A DNA stretch of 64,000 bases from Bacteroidota bacterium (lineage in GTDB: Bacteria > Bacteroidota > Ignavibacteria > UBA10030 > BY39). This document shows, in pieces, positions 45,161 to 55,230 of the stretch. The stretch lies in the NCBI GenBank assembly GCA_030017895.1, contig JASEGV010000001.1, positions 1-64,000 on the forward strand, given 5' to 3'. The position numbers and the translations under genes were made by a program. The notes beneath the pieces were generated by a model. It saw nothing but the letters and a program-made list of their open reading frames with translations. It was not told where the DNA came from and ran no database searches. The first letter of the stretch is position 1. Each line of letters begins with the position of its first letter.

Positions 45161-47470
45161 TTAAAACGAGATCAGATTCGCTAATAACTTATAAGCCCCC
45201 TCCTGTATATTCAATAATTGGTATTGTATTGCCATATTTACATACATAATCGTTCCTTTTTCATACTTTTTGGTTACTAGAAGTGGTGTTTTATTGATTG
45301 ATGATATTATCGGAAATTCTATTTCTTTTGTTGAAGTAATACTTACTTCATTTGATGTTCGAGTGTATATCCAATTTTCGAAATCCTCATCGGTTATTTT
45401 ATTAGGGATATTTAATATTCTATGGTTTGAATCTCTTTCGACAGATGAGTGTTCATCAAAACTGAACGACCGGGTTAATTTTATATCTCGTAATAAAAAC
45501 GATGAATCCCAAAAACTTTTATCCTGAGATAACACAATGAGTTTTCCTCCGGCAGCTACAAAAGTCTCAATATTATTTAAAAAAGATTTCGAATTATCTG
45601 TTAGATTTATATTTCTATCAATAATTATTACATCTAATTTATTTGCATAGGTTTGTAATAAATTCATGTCTTTGAGTTCTATAAATTTTACATTAAGTCT
45701 TTGTAATGTTAATTTAGTTATCGAATTCGTCTGCGAAGAAATCAGTCCAACTTTTTTCGTGCGATCAACAGAAACATCATATCTGCGTGCAACAAAATTA
45801 GCTACAGGTTCCTCACCGATTTTTAATTTCAAGAGGTTGTCGCCAATCTGAATCCCCCGTTTAAAAAATAAATTCAATGTATCTAAATACTCTGCCCCCT
45901 TATAACTAAGCTTTACATTTATAGTATCGGAACTTACTAATGCGGCATCGGATACTGTAACATAGTCTGCTATTCCATCTCTCGTATGATTCGTTAGTCG
46001 AAAGACAAATTTTTCATTATCTCCGTTAGCTAACGAAGCAAATACAACTGGGGTTAATATCTCGACAGTAAAGCGAGGTGAATAATCGAAATATATCATC
46101 TGCTTATAAACAAAATTTTCTTCCTTAACATTTGCGGATTGAATAACAAAAAAATAAAACTGATTTTTGAGATAGGTTTTATCTAAATTATAAATTTCGT
46201 AAGGATAACTATACACAAGATTTGCAGGAGATAAAATGCGATACTCCTCCCCTAACATTAAAGGGTGCCTCTTTTCAGTACTTTCGTTGATAACCCAATC
46301 CTCATCACCGCCAGGGAAGAATAGTTCTGTAGTCCCATTTTTAGATAAACCAGATATAGAGTCTACCCGCAAGATAGTTAATTGGCGGTTTGTTAAAATT
46401 GTTTCGCTGATTGTATAATATAGTTTTACACCTAATAATGAATTCCTAATTTTATCTAAATTTATTTTCCAATTCAAGAATATTTTGTATTCGGCTTGAG
46501 ATAAATTCATCCTGTATGATAACTGCGTATTTACAGAATCCGATAATTTTGATAAATATTTTAATATGTCAATATTTTTGTTATTTTCTTTTACATATTT
46601 TTGGTTTTTCAATACCGACACTGCTAATAAGTCAATATCCTTCTTAATATTCTTCAGCTTGTTCGTATCATAACTTGGTAGATCGGCAATTATATTATTC
46701 AGTTTTTTAGTCTTTGAAGGAAATATTAAAGAGTAACTTGGGACACTCCGGCTCTTTAATTTTTCTAATTGTAGTGAAATTGAGTTGTAATGTTTCATTG
46801 CATCTTCACCAATTTTGCGATACGATTTTTTGTGCCTTGTATCTTTTGTATCGACAGGAATTTTGATTCCTTTTCTTGATGGGTCATCATAATAAAAACG
46901 TGATACTTTCCAATCCCCAACATCAATTATCACTTCTTTAATGGTTTTTACGAGTATATTCAAGGAAAGATTTTTACTTTCGAAATACCAATCTCGGGAC
47001 AATAGGATTACGTCGGGTTTAAAAGTTGATATTAGTTTATATAGTCTATTTTTTAAAGAGTCTTCATTCCAAAGCGAATATATTTTTTCATCATTTGAAG
47101 CTGAAATTATTTCGGGAAACGAGAGATAGTAAGTTTCTCCTTTCAGCGATGATATTGCGGTAAAGCTTTCATGTTTTAATTTAGCGGCAATCTGGTGAGG
47201 ATAATAATAGCTCGAATCGGCTTCAGTGCATTCACCGTTAGTGATATAGGCGCTCATTATTTTTGCTCCTTGCCCAAACCGATAATATGCAAGTGCTGAG
47301 AAATCTTCGTATCCCGGTTTTAAAGAAATATTTAGCACATTTAAACCCGATTTTATATCGATGCAGCTTTGATATAATTCATCGTCTGGTTTATTATTCG
47401 GAAAGACAGAACCGCTTGCCAAGATATTAGCAATTAGAAGTAAAACAAAAATTGATACACTATTCGACAT
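45161..47470 (-). CDS. PIG-L deacetylase-like protein with lost zinc ligands, plus GATase-like C-terminus
   Basis: A 769-residue protein with a signal peptide (about 1-22). Residues 40-165 align by eye with the PIG-L/LmbE fold: VLNISLKPGYEDFSALAYYRFGQGAKIMSAYITNGE, then YYLSFPEI and FKPDVILLSRDWYFES. The HPDDE zinc motif is replaced by KPGYED (51-56) and the late H-x-x-H site by non-histidine residues, so it is probably catalytically dead. A beta-rich middle follows, then a GATase-1-like tail (VGLISSQTNSITKLTLQRLNVKFIEL...GGKLIVLSQD). It lies between the two cassettes. Its base use is AT-richer than its neighbours. Confidence 0.6.
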   Translation of the reverse strand: MSNSVSIFVLLLIANILASGSVFPNNKPDDELYQSCIDIKSGLNVLNISLKPGYEDFSALAYYRFGQGAKIMSAYITNGECTEADSSYYYPHQIAAKLKHESFTAISSLKGETYYLSFPEIISASNDEKIYSLWNEDSLKNRLYKLISTFKPDVILLSRDWYFESKNLSLNILVKTIKEVIIDVGDWKVSRFYYDDPSRKGIKIPVDTKDTRHKKSYRKIGEDAMKHYNSISLQLEKLKSRSVPSYSLIFPSKTKKLNNIIADLPSYDTNKLKNIKKDIDLLAVSVLKNQKYVKENNKNIDILKYLSKLSDSVNTQLSYRMNLSQAEYKIFLNWKINLDKIRNSLLGVKLYYTISETILTNRQLTILRVDSISGLSKNGTTELFFPGGDEDWVINESTEKRHPLMLGEEYRILSPANLVYSYPYEIYNLDKTYLKNQFYFFVIQSANVKEENFVYKQMIYFDYSPRFTVEILTPVVFASLANGDNEKFVFRLTNHTRDGIADYVTVSDAALVSSDTINVKLSYKGAEYLDTLNLFFKRGIQIGDNLLKLKIGEEPVANFVARRYDVSVDRTKKVGLISSQTNSITKLTLQRLNVKFIELKDMNLLQTYANKLDVIIIDRNINLTDNSKSFLNNIETFVAAGGKLIVLSQDKSFWDSSFLLRDIKLTRSFSFDEHSSVERDSNHRILNIPNKITDEDFENWIYTRTSNEVSITSTKEIEFPIISSINKTPLLVTKKYEKGTIMYVNMAIQYQLLNIQEGAYKLLANLISF

Positions 47471-47694: not shown

Positions 47695-48741
47695 TTAAAA
47701 ACCAAGTTTAATGGATAATACATTATTCCCGTCAAAGAAATCGGTTTGTCTGTATGCGTAATCGACAATAATATCAACACCGGGTGCAGAATAAGCAATA
47801 CCAGCGCCGAATGTACCGCCGAAAATGTTTGCATCTTTTTCAGCTTGTGGAACCATACCCATACCGGCTCTTCCGAACAATTTAAGACCACTTAGATAAT
47901 AACCAATTTCACCTCCAAGTTTATATTCGTCCAAGTATAAATTGTTATTTATGAAAGTACTGTTCAAGCTAAAATGTACATTTTCTTGAAATGTGCTAAC
48001 ATAAGCAAGTCCAATCTCAATTGAGGATGGGAGTTCAAAGCTTGCTGCTTGAGTTTTGTATCTTTGTTCAGGTCTGTAGCCCTCGCTTGAAGTTGCACTG
48101 CGGTACAATCCTGTTCCATCAAATGCCATTTGCGAACCGATGTTTTTAACCGTAACACCCATATTCAAACCGGAAATATGAGCCAAGTTGCGATACATTA
48201 CACCAAAATCAAAAGCGACACCGCTTGCTGAAACACGGTCGATTCGCTCAGAGATCATTTTAGCTGTAATACCCGCCGCAACAGCATCGGTCAGTGATTT
48301 CGAGTAAGTGAGACCTAAAGTAAAATAGGTTGGTGAATATACTCTTCCTAAAAGTCCTTCAGGGTCTTCGTTTGTTGTGAGTGGAATATCGCCGAAAGAA
48401 AGCGATTTTATAGTTAACCCAACAACACCGAAATCACCAAACGAAACACCCACGCCGCCGTAGCTAACACCGATATCTCCCAAATAACTCATGGAAGAGA
48501 ACATCCCTTCAGCCCCATACTTTATCAAGCTGAGACCGGCAGGATTCCAGTGTATTGCTTCGACTCCTGAAGTGTTTGAGATGGTGGCACCACCCATTGC
48601 AAAATCGCGAGCACCCACGGGAATTAGTAATTCATTGGCTGCCGCAGTGCCTATCCTTTTATTTTGAGCCTCAGTAAAATTAAAAACAACTAAAATTACA
48701 AGGCATATTAAAAAGGCGGTATATAAATATTTATTTTTCAT
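47695..48741 (-). CDS. PorV/PorQ-family outer-membrane protein (cassette A)
   Basis: A 348-residue protein: signal peptide (YTAFLICLVILVVFNFTEA), RIGTAAANELLIPVGARDFAMGGATISNTSGVEAIHWNPAGLS, beta-barrel, and the terminal IIVDYAYRQTDFFDGNNVLSIKLGF. It is the paralogue of 37203, with the same signature and the same position as the third gene of its cassette. Terminator follows. Confidence 0.83.
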   Translation of the reverse strand: MKNKYLYTAFLICLVILVVFNFTEAQNKRIGTAAANELLIPVGARDFAMGGATISNTSGVEAIHWNPAGLSLIKYGAEGMFSSMSYLGDIGVSYGGVGVSFGDFGVVGLTIKSLSFGDIPLTTNEDPEGLLGRVYSPTYFTLGLTYSKSLTDAVAAGITAKMISERIDRVSASGVAFDFGVMYRNLAHISGLNMGVTVKNIGSQMAFDGTGLYRSATSSEGYRPEQRYKTQAASFELPSSIEIGLAYVSTFQENVHFSLNSTFINNNLYLDEYKLGGEIGYYLSGLKLFGRAGMGMVPQAEKDANIFGGTFGAGIAYSAPGVDIIVDYAYRQTDFFDGNNVLSIKLGF

Positions 48742-48772
48742 ATTTCATTCTCCTTTTAATATTATTTTAGCC

Positions 48773-51700
48773 TTAGAATACATCTGGAACTTCTTGTTCT
48801 TGAATTATAGCTACCTTTACAATCTTGGTAACCCCTACGTCAGGCATATCGACGTGAGCTATGTAAATACCGCTTGCCACTGGAAAATTATGCTCATTAT
48901 TAAGATCCCATTTAAAGAACTGTGAAGGGTCCTCTTTTGTGAGAGTTCGCACTAATTGACCAGCCAAGTTGAATATTCTTATTGTTGCTTTCGCAGGTAA
49001 TTTGTTGAATGTTACAAACCTAACAAACCGGTTTGTTTCGGCAGGATTGAAAGCATAATAAGGATTTGGATACACGCCAACTTTTTGTGCATCGATTTTA
49101 GCAAGTGCATCCGAAAATGTCGGTGCGGTAGTCGTGAACTGATACATGTCTGTACCGGCAACGATCGGGTTGGCAAACTTCACCTTATACACATCGCCAT
49201 TCTTCCACTTCGATGTGCCACCCTGTTCGAAAAAGAGCAGCCAGCCGATTTTCTGATCGTTCGGGAACATTCTTGTGGTCTGTGCCGTGGCTGCATCGTA
49301 TGGGGTGTAAATTACCACGATGTAATCGCGACCTGTCATGCGGTAACGCGGTTCCTGACCAGCCGTGTTTGGATCACCAACGAAGTTGGTATAGGGCGCA
49401 CGACCATCGGCATTACGATTAATCAGAGCATAGTTGAGCTGACGGTTGTTTTCAATATCCCAAAGTTCAAAAGATGAACGCATCTGCACATTCAAGTGGC
49501 TTGTTTCAGTGACTGTTTGTAAACCGAATGAGGTGCGCTGCCACTGCGTTGTCCATTGACCACCCGTAGTGATAGGTGCATCGTTGTTACTCAGACCACT
49601 CGCATCGTTTCCTGTGAAGCGAATTTCAAGGTCGGCTTGCATGTCTGTCAATACTGGATCCGGGGGAATGTCTGCGCCTACCATCGATGACTTGTAAAGT
49701 CCTGTCACACCACCGAAGACTGTATAATCACCCCACAGGGATAATAAACCGCCCGTTGGGGGCACGGTCTGTGCATGCGAAAGGATGGTTATAGGCGGAC
49801 TGTATGTGAGTTTGGACACGTTCACCTGCATACCATCAAAGATAATATAGTTTTCATCACCGGAAATGTTCGTCTGCTTTGCCCGTTGCGTCGTTCCCTC
49901 GTGAACGGTCCATGATCGGACCGGTGAACCCGCAACCGTGTCAATGACCCATCCGATGTCGTATGTTGCAGTTTTCAGTGCCGTCGGGTCGATCACCTTT
50001 GCAACAACAGTCGCATCACCCGAGCCGCCAGTCTTTGTAACAGTTACCAAGTCACCGTACGCTGAGGGGAATCGGGTTCCGGGATTTGTGGAGTGCGGAC
50101 GGACAGTATATATTATTGGACTTGATTCAAGTGCAGTTGGTAAAAAGTCGGTAACTGTTGACCGGCTATAAGCAGTTACTGCTAAATAATATTCCTGACC
50201 ATTATTTAATTTATCGATATCTAATATGTGATCTCGATTAAATCGAAAATAACGAGTTATTCCGCTATTAGAACCAAATTGAACTGGCAACAATAATATT
50301 TCACCCGAACTAACATCGAATTTTCGGTCGAGAATTACTGTCGGCTCTGTTTCTAAATCGAAAGTGGTAAGCCGTTTTGCTTCGGCTAAACTTGCTGATC
50401 GCCTTGGTAATTGATAAACGTTATAACCTTCGAATACAAACTCACCTGGTTGGCTAATTGTATTTTCGGTCTTATCGACTGCTGAAAGATTACTACCCCA
50501 TTCCAGAACAATTTCGCCATCGAGTTCTGCGATTTTGACAGCGGGTGGTGGCGGTGAAGGTGTTACCTGGAAGAGAGCATCGTATGTTGTTTGGACAAAT
50601 TGATCATAAAATTTCATCACATTTATGCTTGATAACCTATCGGCACCTAAACCAGCTACTGTCCCAACAACAACTTCTTGAGTATCTCCGGGTGCAAGTG
50701 TAAATGGACCGGTATTTAAAACAATTCGGCGATCACCAGGTATCAACGACCATTCTGTACCTAAACCGTCAATAAAACCTGTTTTCCGCACAGGATCCCC
50801 ATTGAGGGGGAATTTAGTTTCAGGAACTCCTGTTGGATGAGGATATAACCTCCAACGTGCTGTGGAAGCATCAGGCACATAACCTTGCAACATTCTCCAC
50901 CATCTTAAACCACCTTCATAATTAAACGGTGGATCGCTAATACCACTACCTGCAGAGAAATATGCAAAAGAAGTCATCGGCATATTTTTCTTCCCATATA
51001 CCCTCTTGAGGTTGAAAACACCAGAATCTGTTGGGAGACCGGAGACTAATGGACCTTGTAAAAAATCGTATCCAACGGCGGGTGGTTGGAGACCGAATTT
51101 TTTAAATTCTGCATCAATCGCATTACCATTATAAACGTAACCTAAACTAAGTGGTTTACCGGTAACAGGTGGGAAGAGATTCATATCTACTCCGCATAAA
51201 TCGTCACCATACGACCCTAAATCAGGGTCAGACCATTGGGCGAAGAACATACTATCGATATAAAACGATCCTTTCACTCCTCCACCGATATCAACACCAC
51301 CTTTGTTTATGAACTTAATTTTCTTGAAGTATAAATTACCCATAGCATCGGTACGTTTATAACCCCACAACGTAATTTGTGCCTCAAGCCCTAATGGCTC
51401 TGAACCAAATAAACCTGTAGATGCGCTTCGATCGAGGTCGTTGATTACTGTCCAAATAACCTGATCTGCCGGTGAATTTGGATCAGCTCCAGCAAGTCCC
51501 GGCTCATCATAATTGTGTGCTATAAGAGAATCAGTATTAAAGATTGCACCTTTTGTAACATCATAATTAAACGGTTTGGGCTTTTGGTAACCCGCTGTGC
51601 CGTTTCTTTCGATGTACGGGGCTCCATAAGCTACGGGCCACTCATCCCAATCTTTCGCGTATTGATTCGTAATTTGATCGGTTTGTGATTTTGTTACACT

Positions 51701-52228
51701 GGATACCGGAATTTCAAAAGATTCGGAGGCATCTCGTATCAGTTCTTGCATATCCATCTGGGCGTAATCCCTCCGGACTCTATAAATACGAACATCAGGA
51801 TCAGCAGGAGATTGAGCTACAGCCGATGCACCTGTACCAATGATACGACCAGCACGCGTACCAATGTTATAAGTTTGACCGCCAACACGGATAAGTTGTG
51901 TTGGTGCAGGTGTAGTTAAGCCAGAATCTGTATAAGCTTTTCCACCCCATACAAAACCGTCCTGATAAATTACCCATTTTGTTCCACGTGGAAAATATGA
52001 ACCGTCATCACCCGTGGGTGAATGGTTTTGTTGTCCGTCTGCCCGCATCCAAGTTGTGATATTATTAATATTCAGAATTTGGTAAAGGGGCGTACCTGTT
52101 GGTTTCATCAACGACATATCTTTTTGGCGATTATTTTTATCTGGAATACCAGCGCCAAAAACAGTAGAGCATAAAAAGCCGAAGACCACAACAAGTATTG
52201 ATAGTAATTTTAATTTTTTTATGTTCAT
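48773..52228 (-). CDS. Large secreted protein with T9SS/FlgD-like C-terminal domain (cassette A)
   Basis: A 1151-residue protein. The ATG at 52228 is set by AGGAG 8 bp upstream; a TTG at 52237 is too close to it. Signal peptide KLKLLSILVVVFGFLCSTVFG. Shared blocks with the cassette B protein: INNITTWMRADG, FVWGGKAY, EWPVAYGAPY, WSDPDLGSYGDDLCGVD, LGYVYNG, PPAVGYDFLQGP. The C-terminus VYPNPYYAFN...ATIRIFNLAGQLVRTL...WDLNNEHNFPVASGIYIAHVD is T9SS/FlgD-like. The section encoded by roughly 49100-50100 (residues about 709-1043) has much higher GC than the rest and no clear counterpart in the paralogue. Confidence 0.72.
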   Translation of the reverse strand: MNIKKLKLLSILVVVFGFLCSTVFGAGIPDKNNRQKDMSLMKPTGTPLYQILNINNITTWMRADGQQNHSPTGDDGSYFPRGTKWVIYQDGFVWGGKAYTDSGLTTPAPTQLIRVGGQTYNIGTRAGRIIGTGASAVAQSPADPDVRIYRVRRDYAQMDMQELIRDASESFEIPVSSVTKSQTDQITNQYAKDWDEWPVAYGAPYIERNGTAGYQKPKPFNYDVTKGAIFNTDSLIAHNYDEPGLAGADPNSPADQVIWTVINDLDRSASTGLFGSEPLGLEAQITLWGYKRTDAMGNLYFKKIKFINKGGVDIGGGVKGSFYIDSMFFAQWSDPDLGSYGDDLCGVDMNLFPPVTGKPLSLGYVYNGNAIDAEFKKFGLQPPAVGYDFLQGPLVSGLPTDSGVFNLKRVYGKKNMPMTSFAYFSAGSGISDPPFNYEGGLRWWRMLQGYVPDASTARWRLYPHPTGVPETKFPLNGDPVRKTGFIDGLGTEWSLIPGDRRIVLNTGPFTLAPGDTQEVVVGTVAGLGADRLSSINVMKFYDQFVQTTYDALFQVTPSPPPPAVKIAELDGEIVLEWGSNLSAVDKTENTISQPGEFVFEGYNVYQLPRRSASLAEAKRLTTFDLETEPTVILDRKFDVSSGEILLLPVQFGSNSGITRYFRFNRDHILDIDKLNNGQEYYLAVTAYSRSTVTDFLPTALESSPIIYTVRPHSTNPGTRFPSAYGDLVTVTKTGGSGDATVVAKVIDPTALKTATYDIGWVIDTVAGSPVRSWTVHEGTTQRAKQTNISGDENYIIFDGMQVNVSKLTYSPPITILSHAQTVPPTGGLLSLWGDYTVFGGVTGLYKSSMVGADIPPDPVLTDMQADLEIRFTGNDASGLSNNDAPITTGGQWTTQWQRTSFGLQTVTETSHLNVQMRSSFELWDIENNRQLNYALINRNADGRAPYTNFVGDPNTAGQEPRYRMTGRDYIVVIYTPYDAATAQTTRMFPNDQKIGWLLFFEQGGTSKWKNGDVYKVKFANPIVAGTDMYQFTTTAPTFSDALAKIDAQKVGVYPNPYYAFNPAETNRFVRFVTFNKLPAKATIRIFNLAGQLVRTLTKEDPSQFFKWDLNNEHNFPVASGIYIAHVDMPDVGVTKIVKVAIIQEQEVPDVF

Positions 52229-52266
52229 TTTTAGCAACTCCTTTTTAATTTTGAGTTATGTTTATA

Positions 52267-55230
52267 TTATATTTCAAGTCGTAAACCAAAACGAACCTGA
52301 CGCGGCGTACCGAACAAATCGTTTCCGGTAGCCACCATATAAGCCCAACGGTTCTGTGAATTAATGGCTTTATAGAAATCGGTGTAGTTAGGAATTTGGT
52401 GGAATGGTGTTGCCGATGGATTACCTAACCAGCCATCGTCCTGGGCAGTTCCGGTTGTTGGATATACGTTCAATATGTCCTTTGTGTTGAGTAAATTAAT
52501 AATATTTACATATAATTCAGCATCGATTACACCAAGGTTGAATTTTTTACTAAAGTTGAGGTCGATATTATATACCCAAGGAGTGGTCGAACTGTTGAGT
52601 GGTTCGGTCGGGAAGCTTGCACGAGCATCGTTCAGAGGTTCAACACCGACGTTCCAAACGTCTGCTTGTCCGATTTCTTTCAACTCTTTTATTTTAGTAT
52701 ATGCATGTCCGCTATTGAACGAGAGTATCATATTGACACCCATTTGTTCTAATATTGGACCACCATCGCCTTTAGCAAATCTGTAATCGAGCAACAATGT
52801 GCCTGAATGAGTTTGGTTAAAATCGAGCGGGTTTATGAAGCTTGTCGGACGTCCAATGTTTTGTTCAACAGCTCCGAATGAAGAGCGTGAATTCGAACCT
52901 GTTCCGCGGGCATCGGATAATGTGTAATTAAACTTTGAAGCTAATCGGTTAGTACGACGTAGCTCAAGCGTTAATTCCAACCCCTTTATTGTTCCAAAAT
53001 CATCGTTCAAGTATGCAGTGAACAATTTACTACCAGCTTCATTAACGTACGAACGAACCTGTAATTGGTCTTTTATGTCTTTGTAAAATCCGCTAACTGT
53101 AAATGCAAAATTATCAGATAACGTTTGACGAATACCCATCTCGTATTGAGTTGTTCTTTCGGGTATCATCAGGTATCCAACTGGAGTTAAGAATGCATTT
53201 CCACGAGTTATCGGACTGACTGTACGGCTGAGAGTTGTGTTTCCAATGTACAGTTGATTCAAAGATGGCATCTGTGCGTATTTTCCGTACATCGCATAGA
53301 ATACTGTTACATCGGTAACAGGAAATGAAAAACTAACACGAGGTAACACCAGATTAAACGGTTTCGCCTCCTCTAATTTTTCTTCATCTATTACATCTAA
53401 ATCAGTATTGAAATCGGGTTGTAGAGGATCTTTGAACGTTTTATTCTTCGTATCGAAGTATTCGTAACGGAGACCCAAATTAAGAATAATGTCCTGATAT
53501 TCTAATTTATTTTGTAAATAAGCTGATGCAAAAAGTGGCTTTCGTGGTGCATCGAATCCCGAACTTGCCTCATTACCATCAACATCGTAGCCATAATGAT
53601 TGATAGTTCCTGCTTTAGATAATCGGACGCGTCTTTCATAATCATCAGCGAAGGTTCGGGGTGTTCTTCCGTCCGTACCGTAGAGATACTCCATAGCATT
53701 CTGAATATTACCTACTGCATAATTGCGGGCGATCCATGAATCTAATCTGGTACCGAATTTTATTTCCCAATTAGATGTAAGTTGAGAAGTTAGGTCGCCT
53801 GCAAAACCGTAAGATGTTTGTTGGTTTTTAAAGTAAGAATTATTGGGTGCATTTTCGTGTGTCATCAAAAATGCATTAATTATGTTATAAGGTAGTGGAC
53901 CTGCGTAAGGGCGTCGGAATCCAGTGTAACCTAATTCAGCATTTTTAGTACTATCGGTATATGATTTCCAGTCGTCACCAAAATCAGGATCAACACGCCT
54001 GAAGTATCGATTCTGGTAAGAGAGTGCTACTTCGTAGTAAGTTTTTGGATTAACAACATGAGTAAATCTGAAATTTGCAAATCCGGTTGTGTTGTGATCG
54101 ATACGCGACCGCTTGTTGAAATACCGGGTTAAAGCGACGGGCCATCTGTTATCGAATGGCGATTTATCGTATGTGTAACTTCCGGATAGTTTGAACTTCA
54201 TTGATTGTAACTCATAATTCAGGTTACCCTGCCCTGAGTAATTTTGCAACCAATTGCCCGGGACATAATTCTTCTTGAATTCGATCGGACCAGGGAGCGA
54301 TCTACCGGGCGCTTCATCGTTAATATCCGTAACAATATTTTTGAAACTGAAAGGTTCGATGAACCTTAGGCTGCGATTTCTAATAAATTGATGTTGACCA
54401 GCTACGAAAAATTTTAAATTTTTCACCGCAGGACCGCTAATCGTAGCCACCATATTTGTGTAACCAAACGATGATGAACCAAGATAGTCGGCACCGGGTT
54501 TAGCAAGGTTATCGGTTAGGAAATCGACCGAGCCTTTGTAGCTGCTTTGTCCTGTTCGTAGAGTAGTTCGTGCGATACCAGAGTTTGCACCGCCAAATTC
54601 TGCAGTATAACCACCGGCTTGCAACTGAAGTTCTTCAATAGCTTCCTGAATTACCGAAAAAGTTTGTGCATTGGTAATAGGATTTGTTGTAGAAGCGCCA
54701 TCAACAAAATATGCAATTTCGCCTGAACGTCCACCGCGCACATAAAGTAGATTATCTTGATCTACTACTCCAGCTTGCAGACTCAAAATATTTTCAAGTC
54801 CACGGATAGGAAGATTTCTGATATCTTCCTGTGTTGTAACTCGGACTGTGTTGGTTGTGTTTCGTTGAATAAGCGGACGTTCGGCAAAAATATCTACTGC
54901 ATCAACTTGAACAGCTTCGCTTAGAAGTTGAAAATTTTGAGTAGTAGTAAAATTCGAGAGGACACGAACGTTTGAGATTGTAACTGTAGCATAACCGACA
55001 TAGGATGCCTTTATGCTATATGTTCCGGGTGGAACACTTAAAATAAAAAACTCACCATTGATATCGCTTGCTGCACCCATCATAGTGCCTTCGAGAGACA
55101 CTGTTGCACCAATCAGGGGCTCACCGTTAGTTTTATCGGTGATGATACCACGTAACTTACCATCTTGTGCAGATGTAACAACTGTTACTAATAGAATAGT
55201 GAGAAATAAAGCTAGTAATTTTTTAATCAT
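52267..55230 (-). CDS. TonB-dependent receptor (cassette A)
   Basis: A 987-residue outer-membrane receptor with the same order as its paralogue: signal peptide, carboxypeptidase-regulatory-like domain (GKLRGIITDKTNGEPLIGATVSLEG), plug (VTTQEDIRNLPIRGLENI, LYVRGGRSGEIAYFVDGAS), barrel, and C-terminus RQVRFGLRLEI. No SusD homologue follows. AAGGAGG precedes the ATG at good spacing. A compact operon with the two genes below. Confidence 0.88.
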   Translation of the reverse strand: MIKKLLALFLTILLVTVVTSAQDGKLRGIITDKTNGEPLIGATVSLEGTMMGAASDINGEFFILSVPPGTYSIKASYVGYATVTISNVRVLSNFTTTQNFQLLSEAVQVDAVDIFAERPLIQRNTTNTVRVTTQEDIRNLPIRGLENILSLQAGVVDQDNLLYVRGGRSGEIAYFVDGASTTNPITNAQTFSVIQEAIEELQLQAGGYTAEFGGANSGIARTTLRTGQSSYKGSVDFLTDNLAKPGADYLGSSSFGYTNMVATISGPAVKNLKFFVAGQHQFIRNRSLRFIEPFSFKNIVTDINDEAPGRSLPGPIEFKKNYVPGNWLQNYSGQGNLNYELQSMKFKLSGSYTYDKSPFDNRWPVALTRYFNKRSRIDHNTTGFANFRFTHVVNPKTYYEVALSYQNRYFRRVDPDFGDDWKSYTDSTKNAELGYTGFRRPYAGPLPYNIINAFLMTHENAPNNSYFKNQQTSYGFAGDLTSQLTSNWEIKFGTRLDSWIARNYAVGNIQNAMEYLYGTDGRTPRTFADDYERRVRLSKAGTINHYGYDVDGNEASSGFDAPRKPLFASAYLQNKLEYQDIILNLGLRYEYFDTKNKTFKDPLQPDFNTDLDVIDEEKLEEAKPFNLVLPRVSFSFPVTDVTVFYAMYGKYAQMPSLNQLYIGNTTLSRTVSPITRGNAFLTPVGYLMIPERTTQYEMGIRQTLSDNFAFTVSGFYKDIKDQLQVRSYVNEAGSKLFTAYLNDDFGTIKGLELTLELRRTNRLASKFNYTLSDARGTGSNSRSSFGAVEQNIGRPTSFINPLDFNQTHSGTLLLDYRFAKGDGGPILEQMGVNMILSFNSGHAYTKIKELKEIGQADVWNVGVEPLNDARASFPTEPLNSSTTPWVYNIDLNFSKKFNLGVIDAELYVNIINLLNTKDILNVYPTTGTAQDDGWLGNPSATPFHQIPNYTDFYKAINSQNRWAYMVATGNDLFGTPRQVRFGLRLEI

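Follow-up and report, generated by a model that had tools for sequence, protein, structure and literature searches.

Replacement of an orthologous module in a predicted type IX-secreted protein gene of an Ignavibacteria genome, and exchange of the same module across the protein family

The window analysed here is a stretch of 64,000 nucleotides from a Bacteroidota bacterium of the class Ignavibacteria (assembly GCA_030017895.1, contig JASEGV010000001.1, positions 1 to 64,000), and it contains a gene cassette on the (-) strand, the strand of all window features described below. A gene at 48773..52237 encodes, according to its open reading frame and translation, a predicted secreted protein of 1154 amino acids that ends in a type IX sorting domain (TIGR04183); we label this window gene L001, its protein P0001 and its genome G000. 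Upstream of it lies a gene for a TonB-dependent receptor (52267..55230), which matches the generic TonB receptor domains (PF00593, 93 bits; PF07715, 30 bits) and scores below the SusC/RagA-family cut-off (TIGR04056, 61.8 bits vs 368). The product of the downstream gene (47695..48741) belongs to the PorV/PorQ family of outer-membrane proteins, with 143.1 bits against NF033709 at a cut-off of 90. A fourth cassette gene (45161..47470) has weak PIG-L and DUF7408 matches, and such a PIG-L/DUF7408-like large protein is a conserved fourth gene beside many homologues of L001 with any module type (23 of the 79 loci, five of which, namely, L119, L141, L143, L148 and L150, are partial and were left unread). 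A tie between module type and this gene was considered and none was seen, the gene adjoining different module types. The whole genome holds nine PorV-family genes above the cut-off, of which two or more lie in similar cassettes within the window, and the type IX cassettes of G000 are probably a paralogous set.

The sorting domain of P0001 (residues 1050-1154, 48776..49090) scores 28.8 bits against TIGR04183 over residues 1055-1140, above the cut-off of 23, and stays under the cut-off of the Pfam model PF18962 (16.6 vs 27). The genome also encodes SprA (1099.9 bits over joined matches) and two Peptidase_C25 genes, one of them on contig C10, where a PorV-family match follows after about 1.2 kb. 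From these matches we infer type IX secretion and surface display of P0001, a predicted cargo.

The AF2 model of the full-length protein has a mean pLDDT of 81.5, with low confidence in the insert part described below. Residues 48-558 (50564..52096) form a conserved, predicted beta-supersandwich domain with pLDDT mostly above 90, the model of which resembles the N-terminal domains of GH94/GH116 and mutarotases (VIA-align Z of about 14-19). It is followed by a linker of residues ~565-710 (50108..50545), which we name FN3-like on the basis of its AF2 strand pattern and weak Foldseek matches to fibronectin III. The module between this linker and the sorting domain was also modelled alone (336 residues, pLDDT 77.9, with low values in parts of the insert), and VIA-align matched its model to domain D2 of FlgL (Z 9.2, 89 residues) and of FlgK (Z 8.5, 82 residues), with an rmsd of 2.5. 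Since the match begins at residue 12-16 and ends at residue 324 of these 336, yet comprises fewer than 90 aligned residues, we read the matched D2 part as the first ~90 residues plus the last strands of the module. Accordingly, a putative FlgK/FlgL D2-like scaffold would have its first part at residues ~724-812 (49802..50068, VIA-align) and its last strand at residues ~1029-1039 (49121..49153, VIA-align and homologue alignment), and the residues between them, ~813-1025 (49163..49801), would form a variable insert domain. The insert was delimited by alignment with L003 (in the same genome), L104 and L036, the three module-less paralogues among the 83 homologues, which have the D2-like domain without it. 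A standard Foldseek search of the module alone against the PDB gave no match at E <= 0.001, and a Pfam search gave no name for the window module; therefore, the D2 fold call comes from VIA-align and from the weak matches to Pfam flgK_1st_1 that 10 of the 51 modules examined show (best E 0.0015). The module thus appears to consist of a D2-like scaffold into which a variable domain of some 210 residues, likely an exposed tip, is inserted. Two of the 51 homologue modules match a CHRD domain (best E 4.6e-21), some modules having acquired this additional known domain.

A sequence-only reading of this DNA had noticed a high-GC tract at about 49100-50100 within the gene, in an unbroken reading frame. 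Both the total GC and the GC at third codon positions (GC3) bear out the tract, and the open reading frame and its translation run through it without interruption. In 300-base windows the total GC is 0.47-0.52 at 49100-50149 vs 0.37-0.44 at 50150-51350 and 0.33-0.38 at 48650-49099; the 30-40% that had been given for the flanks is slightly low, most other windows of the gene having 0.36-0.45. GC3 in 100-codon windows is 0.46-0.56 for residues 701-1050 and 0.22-0.36 in most windows elsewhere in the gene. The best GC3 change-point delimits residues 712-1039 (49121..50104), with 0.53 inside vs 0.29 outside and a log-likelihood gain of 28.7, while the gain never exceeded 10.1 in 40 codon permutations, nor 8.6 in the other 28 window genes tested. 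For comparison with the family, we read 105 coding sequences, dropped seven that were broken, partial or cut (L101, L139, L154, L002, L102, L110 and L120) and then removed duplicates, leaving 83 homologues. GC3 of the segment minus GC3 of the N-terminal part is +0.23 in the window gene, and has a mean of -0.010 (SD 0.037, range -0.101 to +0.080) in the other 82, so that the window gene is the sole outlier. An intrinsic GC rise of the domain was thus rejected, since 82 of the 83 homologues lie within 0.101 of zero. As the other 82 homologues show no GC3 shift, the high GC is neither intrinsic to the domain nor an effect of amino-acid composition, which is also what the presence of the step at third codon positions indicates.

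We then compared the window gene with its orthologue L022 in the congener G001 and with L021 in G013, a genome of another family in the same order. Against the congener, the window protein has an identity of 82% over residues 41-700, of 94% over the sorting domain and of only 32% over the module, whereas its identities to G013 are 68% in the N part, 74% in the C part and 75% in the module. Since L022 has nearly the same length as the window gene, and most homologues have a domain of similar length at that place, the tract is a replacement of the orthologous domain by a different version and not an insert, as it had first been called. Trees were built from 33 sequences, namely, the window gene and those with an N-part identity of at least 0.52 to it. 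In the tree of the N and C parts, the window gene groups with G001 (support 100/100) and a grouping with G013 is rejected (AU p=2.5e-4); the module tree instead places it with G013 (100/97), and there a grouping with G001 is rejected (AU p=1.1e-6). The two parts thus do not have the same tree, each AU test rejecting the topology of the other part. Together with the GC3 step and with the fact that the closest relative of the tract, the G013 gene, has a GC3 of 0.55, this conflict upholds the suggestion from sequence alone of a mosaic gene with residues ~709-1043 from a donor of higher GC. The closest hits, which were said there to support transfer if they lay outside the phylum, are nearer: the best match (75%) is in the same order, in another family.

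The junctions were located in a codon alignment of the window gene, L022 and L021. At the left junction, about codons 706-713 (50099..50122), the last congener-like sites are followed by donor-like sites; at the right one, about codons 1046-1059 (49061..49102), which ends in the conserved PNPYYAFNPAET, the DNA is congener-like again within about 14 codons, and residues 1051-1100 are 98% identical to G001 in amino acids and 92% in nucleotides. Both junctions fall in well-conserved stretches, around AVTAYS...ALES and PNPYYAFNPAET, where assemblers may jump as well as recombination act. Thus, an assembly chimera, in which two related genes of one metagenome were joined at conserved stretches, has to be considered, the more so as the window genome is in 176 contigs and nearly all genomes compared are metagenome assemblies. 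However, it would need two in-frame jumps within one 115.6-kb contig at the usual borders of the family, and unrelated genomes with uniform GC3 have modules with these same borders; moreover, L132, which lies in a 6.3-Mb contig, also has a module of another type than its backbone relatives. We consider a chimera improbable.

The adjoining genes remained congener-like, the TonB receptor being 94.5% and the PorV-type protein 96.6% identical to those of G001, which argues that the locus is native and that the module alone moved. A small bump in GC3 is also seen within the receptor gene, at 54070-54375 (residues 286-387; 0.52 vs 0.31, LR 8.6). Co-exchange of the receptor was rejected, as it is 90-95% identical to the congener at this bump. 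Alternatively, the whole gene might have come from a G013-like donor, with both flanks later converted back to the native type. This is suggested by the synonymous-codon identity to the congener, which is 0.45-0.68 over residues 100-700 vs 0.66-0.96 in most of the neighbouring genes, and because of which residues 100-700 may have a more complex history. However, the N part of G013 is no closer to the window gene than that of its congener L025 or that of L024, GC3 is native in residues 30-710, and cassette B, which is collinear with that of the congener, also spans synonymous identities of 0.38-0.93. In view of this similar spread, a replacement of residues 100-700 as well is no more than possible; import of the whole gene seems to us quite unlikely. 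In the cassette B protein, no exchange was seen between the two congeners, which are 65-98% identical per 50-residue window and identical in the last 12 residues.

A different kind of transfer is hinted at by an exact 71-bp tract common to codons 404-427 of the window gene (~50957-51028) and the paralogue L002 of the same genome, where the congener differs; this suggests that gene conversion between paralogues may also occur. The paralogue (L002/L162, G000:C52:20222-21867) is 79-81% identical to residues 1-541 of the window protein, and its end runs into a sequence that is present at six places of the genome, mostly contig ends, probably an insertion-sequence end that interrupts it.

To see how the module varies across the family, we compared the 3160 pairs formed by the 80 homologues with a module region of 250-480 residues. 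In the 19 pairs, not all independent, with an N-part identity of at least 0.75, the module identity is bimodal, being 0.23-0.52 in 12 pairs and 0.72-0.95 in seven, with none between 0.52 and 0.72. L021 and L025 belong to one genus; their N parts have 92% identity and their modules 23%, a joint module clade being rejected (p=1.4e-47). Similarly, the orthologous pairs L087/L099 and L091/L029 of UBA6688 and NC_groundwater_753 each differ in their module, and the two paralogues within UBA6688 have one module type in common. More than one module type is found in six of the 12 backbone groups having several members. Conversely, the module is more alike than the backbone in L001/L021 (0.75 vs 0.68), L040/L043 (0.64 vs 0.43), L093/L149 (0.60 vs 0.41) and L093/L118 (0.76 vs 0.62). 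The best-fit borders of pairs with different modules cluster at 715-731 and 1037-1056 (715-1053, 731-1041, 722-1037, 725-1055, 723-1056 and 721-1051 in individual pairs), with exceptions on the left side in L001/L022 and L095/L118 (691-692) and in two Kryptonia pairs (816-1027), in which the insert alone seems to differ; where a pair has the same module on different backbones, the fits resolve the borders poorly and some place them elsewhere. These comparisons show that the same domain has been repeatedly exchanged among homologues with nearly identical borders.

One might instead suppose that there was no exchange, the domain evolving very fast in place and the GC rise being local drift. The module is indeed less conserved than the N part by more than 0.02 in four of the seven same-type pairs, as in L044/L045 (0.72 vs 0.88) and L111/L147 (0.72 vs 0.90). 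However, fast evolution fits poorly with the empty range in the module identities of the 19 close pairs, with pairs such as L001/L021, L040/L043 and L093/L149 that are closer in the module than in the backbone, with the AU tests that reject backbone clades in the module tree, and with the uniform GC3 of the other homologues, and we regard it as extremely improbable.

We searched for a donor in 98 genomes of the order and 391 of the class. Order-wide, 35 of the 98 genomes match the module at E <= 1e-6, with 75% identity in G013 and 40% and 38% in the next ones. Class-wide, eight of the 391 genomes, own genome counted, match at E <= 1e-15; after G013 come G128 of another order (53%), G214 with three copies (at most 46%) and G298 (40%), the last two with matches that begin at query residue 61-80, so that it is mainly the insert that is common to them. 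Since no match above 75% was found in either set, the donor itself is in neither of them; it would have a higher GC, and G013 would be its nearest relative among the genomes compared. Recruitment from outside the phylum found no support in these order and class searches. Likewise, no silent copy of the module was found at E <= 1e-6 in the own genome, in its 176 contigs.

Taken together, our best explanation, to which we give a probability of about 0.85, is that the module of a higher-GC relative replaced the native one by recombination, that such exchange is widespread in the family, and that it altered the likely exposed tip. DNA from a related cell would enter, and homologous recombination in the conserved flanks would swap the middle of the gene, a process that fits the conserved flanks and the codon-level junctions and would need neither a recombinase nor a repeat. 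The tip would thereby be altered while the N-terminal domain, the sorting domain, PorV and the TonB receptor stay constant. In the least certain step, the new tip would alter surface binding or recognition, be it of a phage, a grazer, a ligand or a neighbour. A constant receptor, PorV and backbone together with a changing tip might fit a recognition or binding surface, and the family-wide trading of the module suggests that the outer part of the protein is under pressure to change. More speculatively, the cassettes of TonB receptor, secreted protein and PorV in Ignavibacteria and neighbouring phyla could constitute a polymorphic surface-recognition system, an idea that we put forward only tentatively. 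If true, a constant carrier with a D2-like dock would bear tips that are traded across families, orders and even phyla and that determine, in uncultured bacteria, which phages infect, which neighbours are recognised or which ligands are chosen. Our literature search, the scope of which lay mostly outside subscription journals, found no report on this protein family. With the module and its borders defined and a likely scaffold and partner genes named, the selecting force, be it phage, grazers, ligands or kin, becomes directly testable.

Several known systems bear likeness to the one described here. Flagellins have variable domains between conserved ends, and the predicted scaffold of our module resembles domain D2 of the flagellar proteins FlgL and FlgK (Z 9.2, rmsd 2.5, 89 residues in the model comparison). 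Unlike these flagellar proteins, however, P0001 is a predicted type IX cargo, with its D2-like module between an FN3-like and a sorting domain. The cassette resembles a SusC/RagA pair in that the gene directly upstream codes for a TonB-dependent receptor bearing a carboxypeptidase-regulatory domain, but the receptor scores below the TIGR04056 cut-off and its partner has no SusD match in Pfam. The variable domain of TraA is of the PA14 type; no TraA-type domain was found in the window protein by Pfam, PA14 being without a match at E <= 1. TraA is a polymorphic self-recognition receptor of myxobacteria, and like P0001 it is a single surface protein with a polymorphic part, which in TraA sets recognition across an order (PMC6372800). 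The nearest parallel comes from Porphyromonas gingivalis, where the adhesin and catalytic domains of Kgp, RagAB and the fimbriae reportedly undergo allelic exchange and domain rearrangement, giving a mosaic that ignores the strain phylogeny and is attributed to horizontal exchange and recombination (PMC5266723). The distribution of variants in our family likewise conflicts with the backbone phylogeny, the pattern taken there as allelic exchange, and in both cases variants of a type IX-secreted surface protein, predicted as such in ours and joined in P. gingivalis by the TonB-linked pair RagAB, form a mosaic. The backbone here is, unlike a gingipain, a predicted beta-supersandwich protein and the module D2-like with an insert; no Pfam or NCBIfam match to the gingipain catalytic domain was found in P0001 at E <= 1. 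A predicted surface protein of environmental bacteria thus shows a module exchange that is best known from immune-pressured pathogens, over a far wider taxonomic distance: in P. gingivalis, the exchange reportedly involves one species with two to four variants per locus, whereas here it crosses the borders of families, orders and, apparently, phyla.
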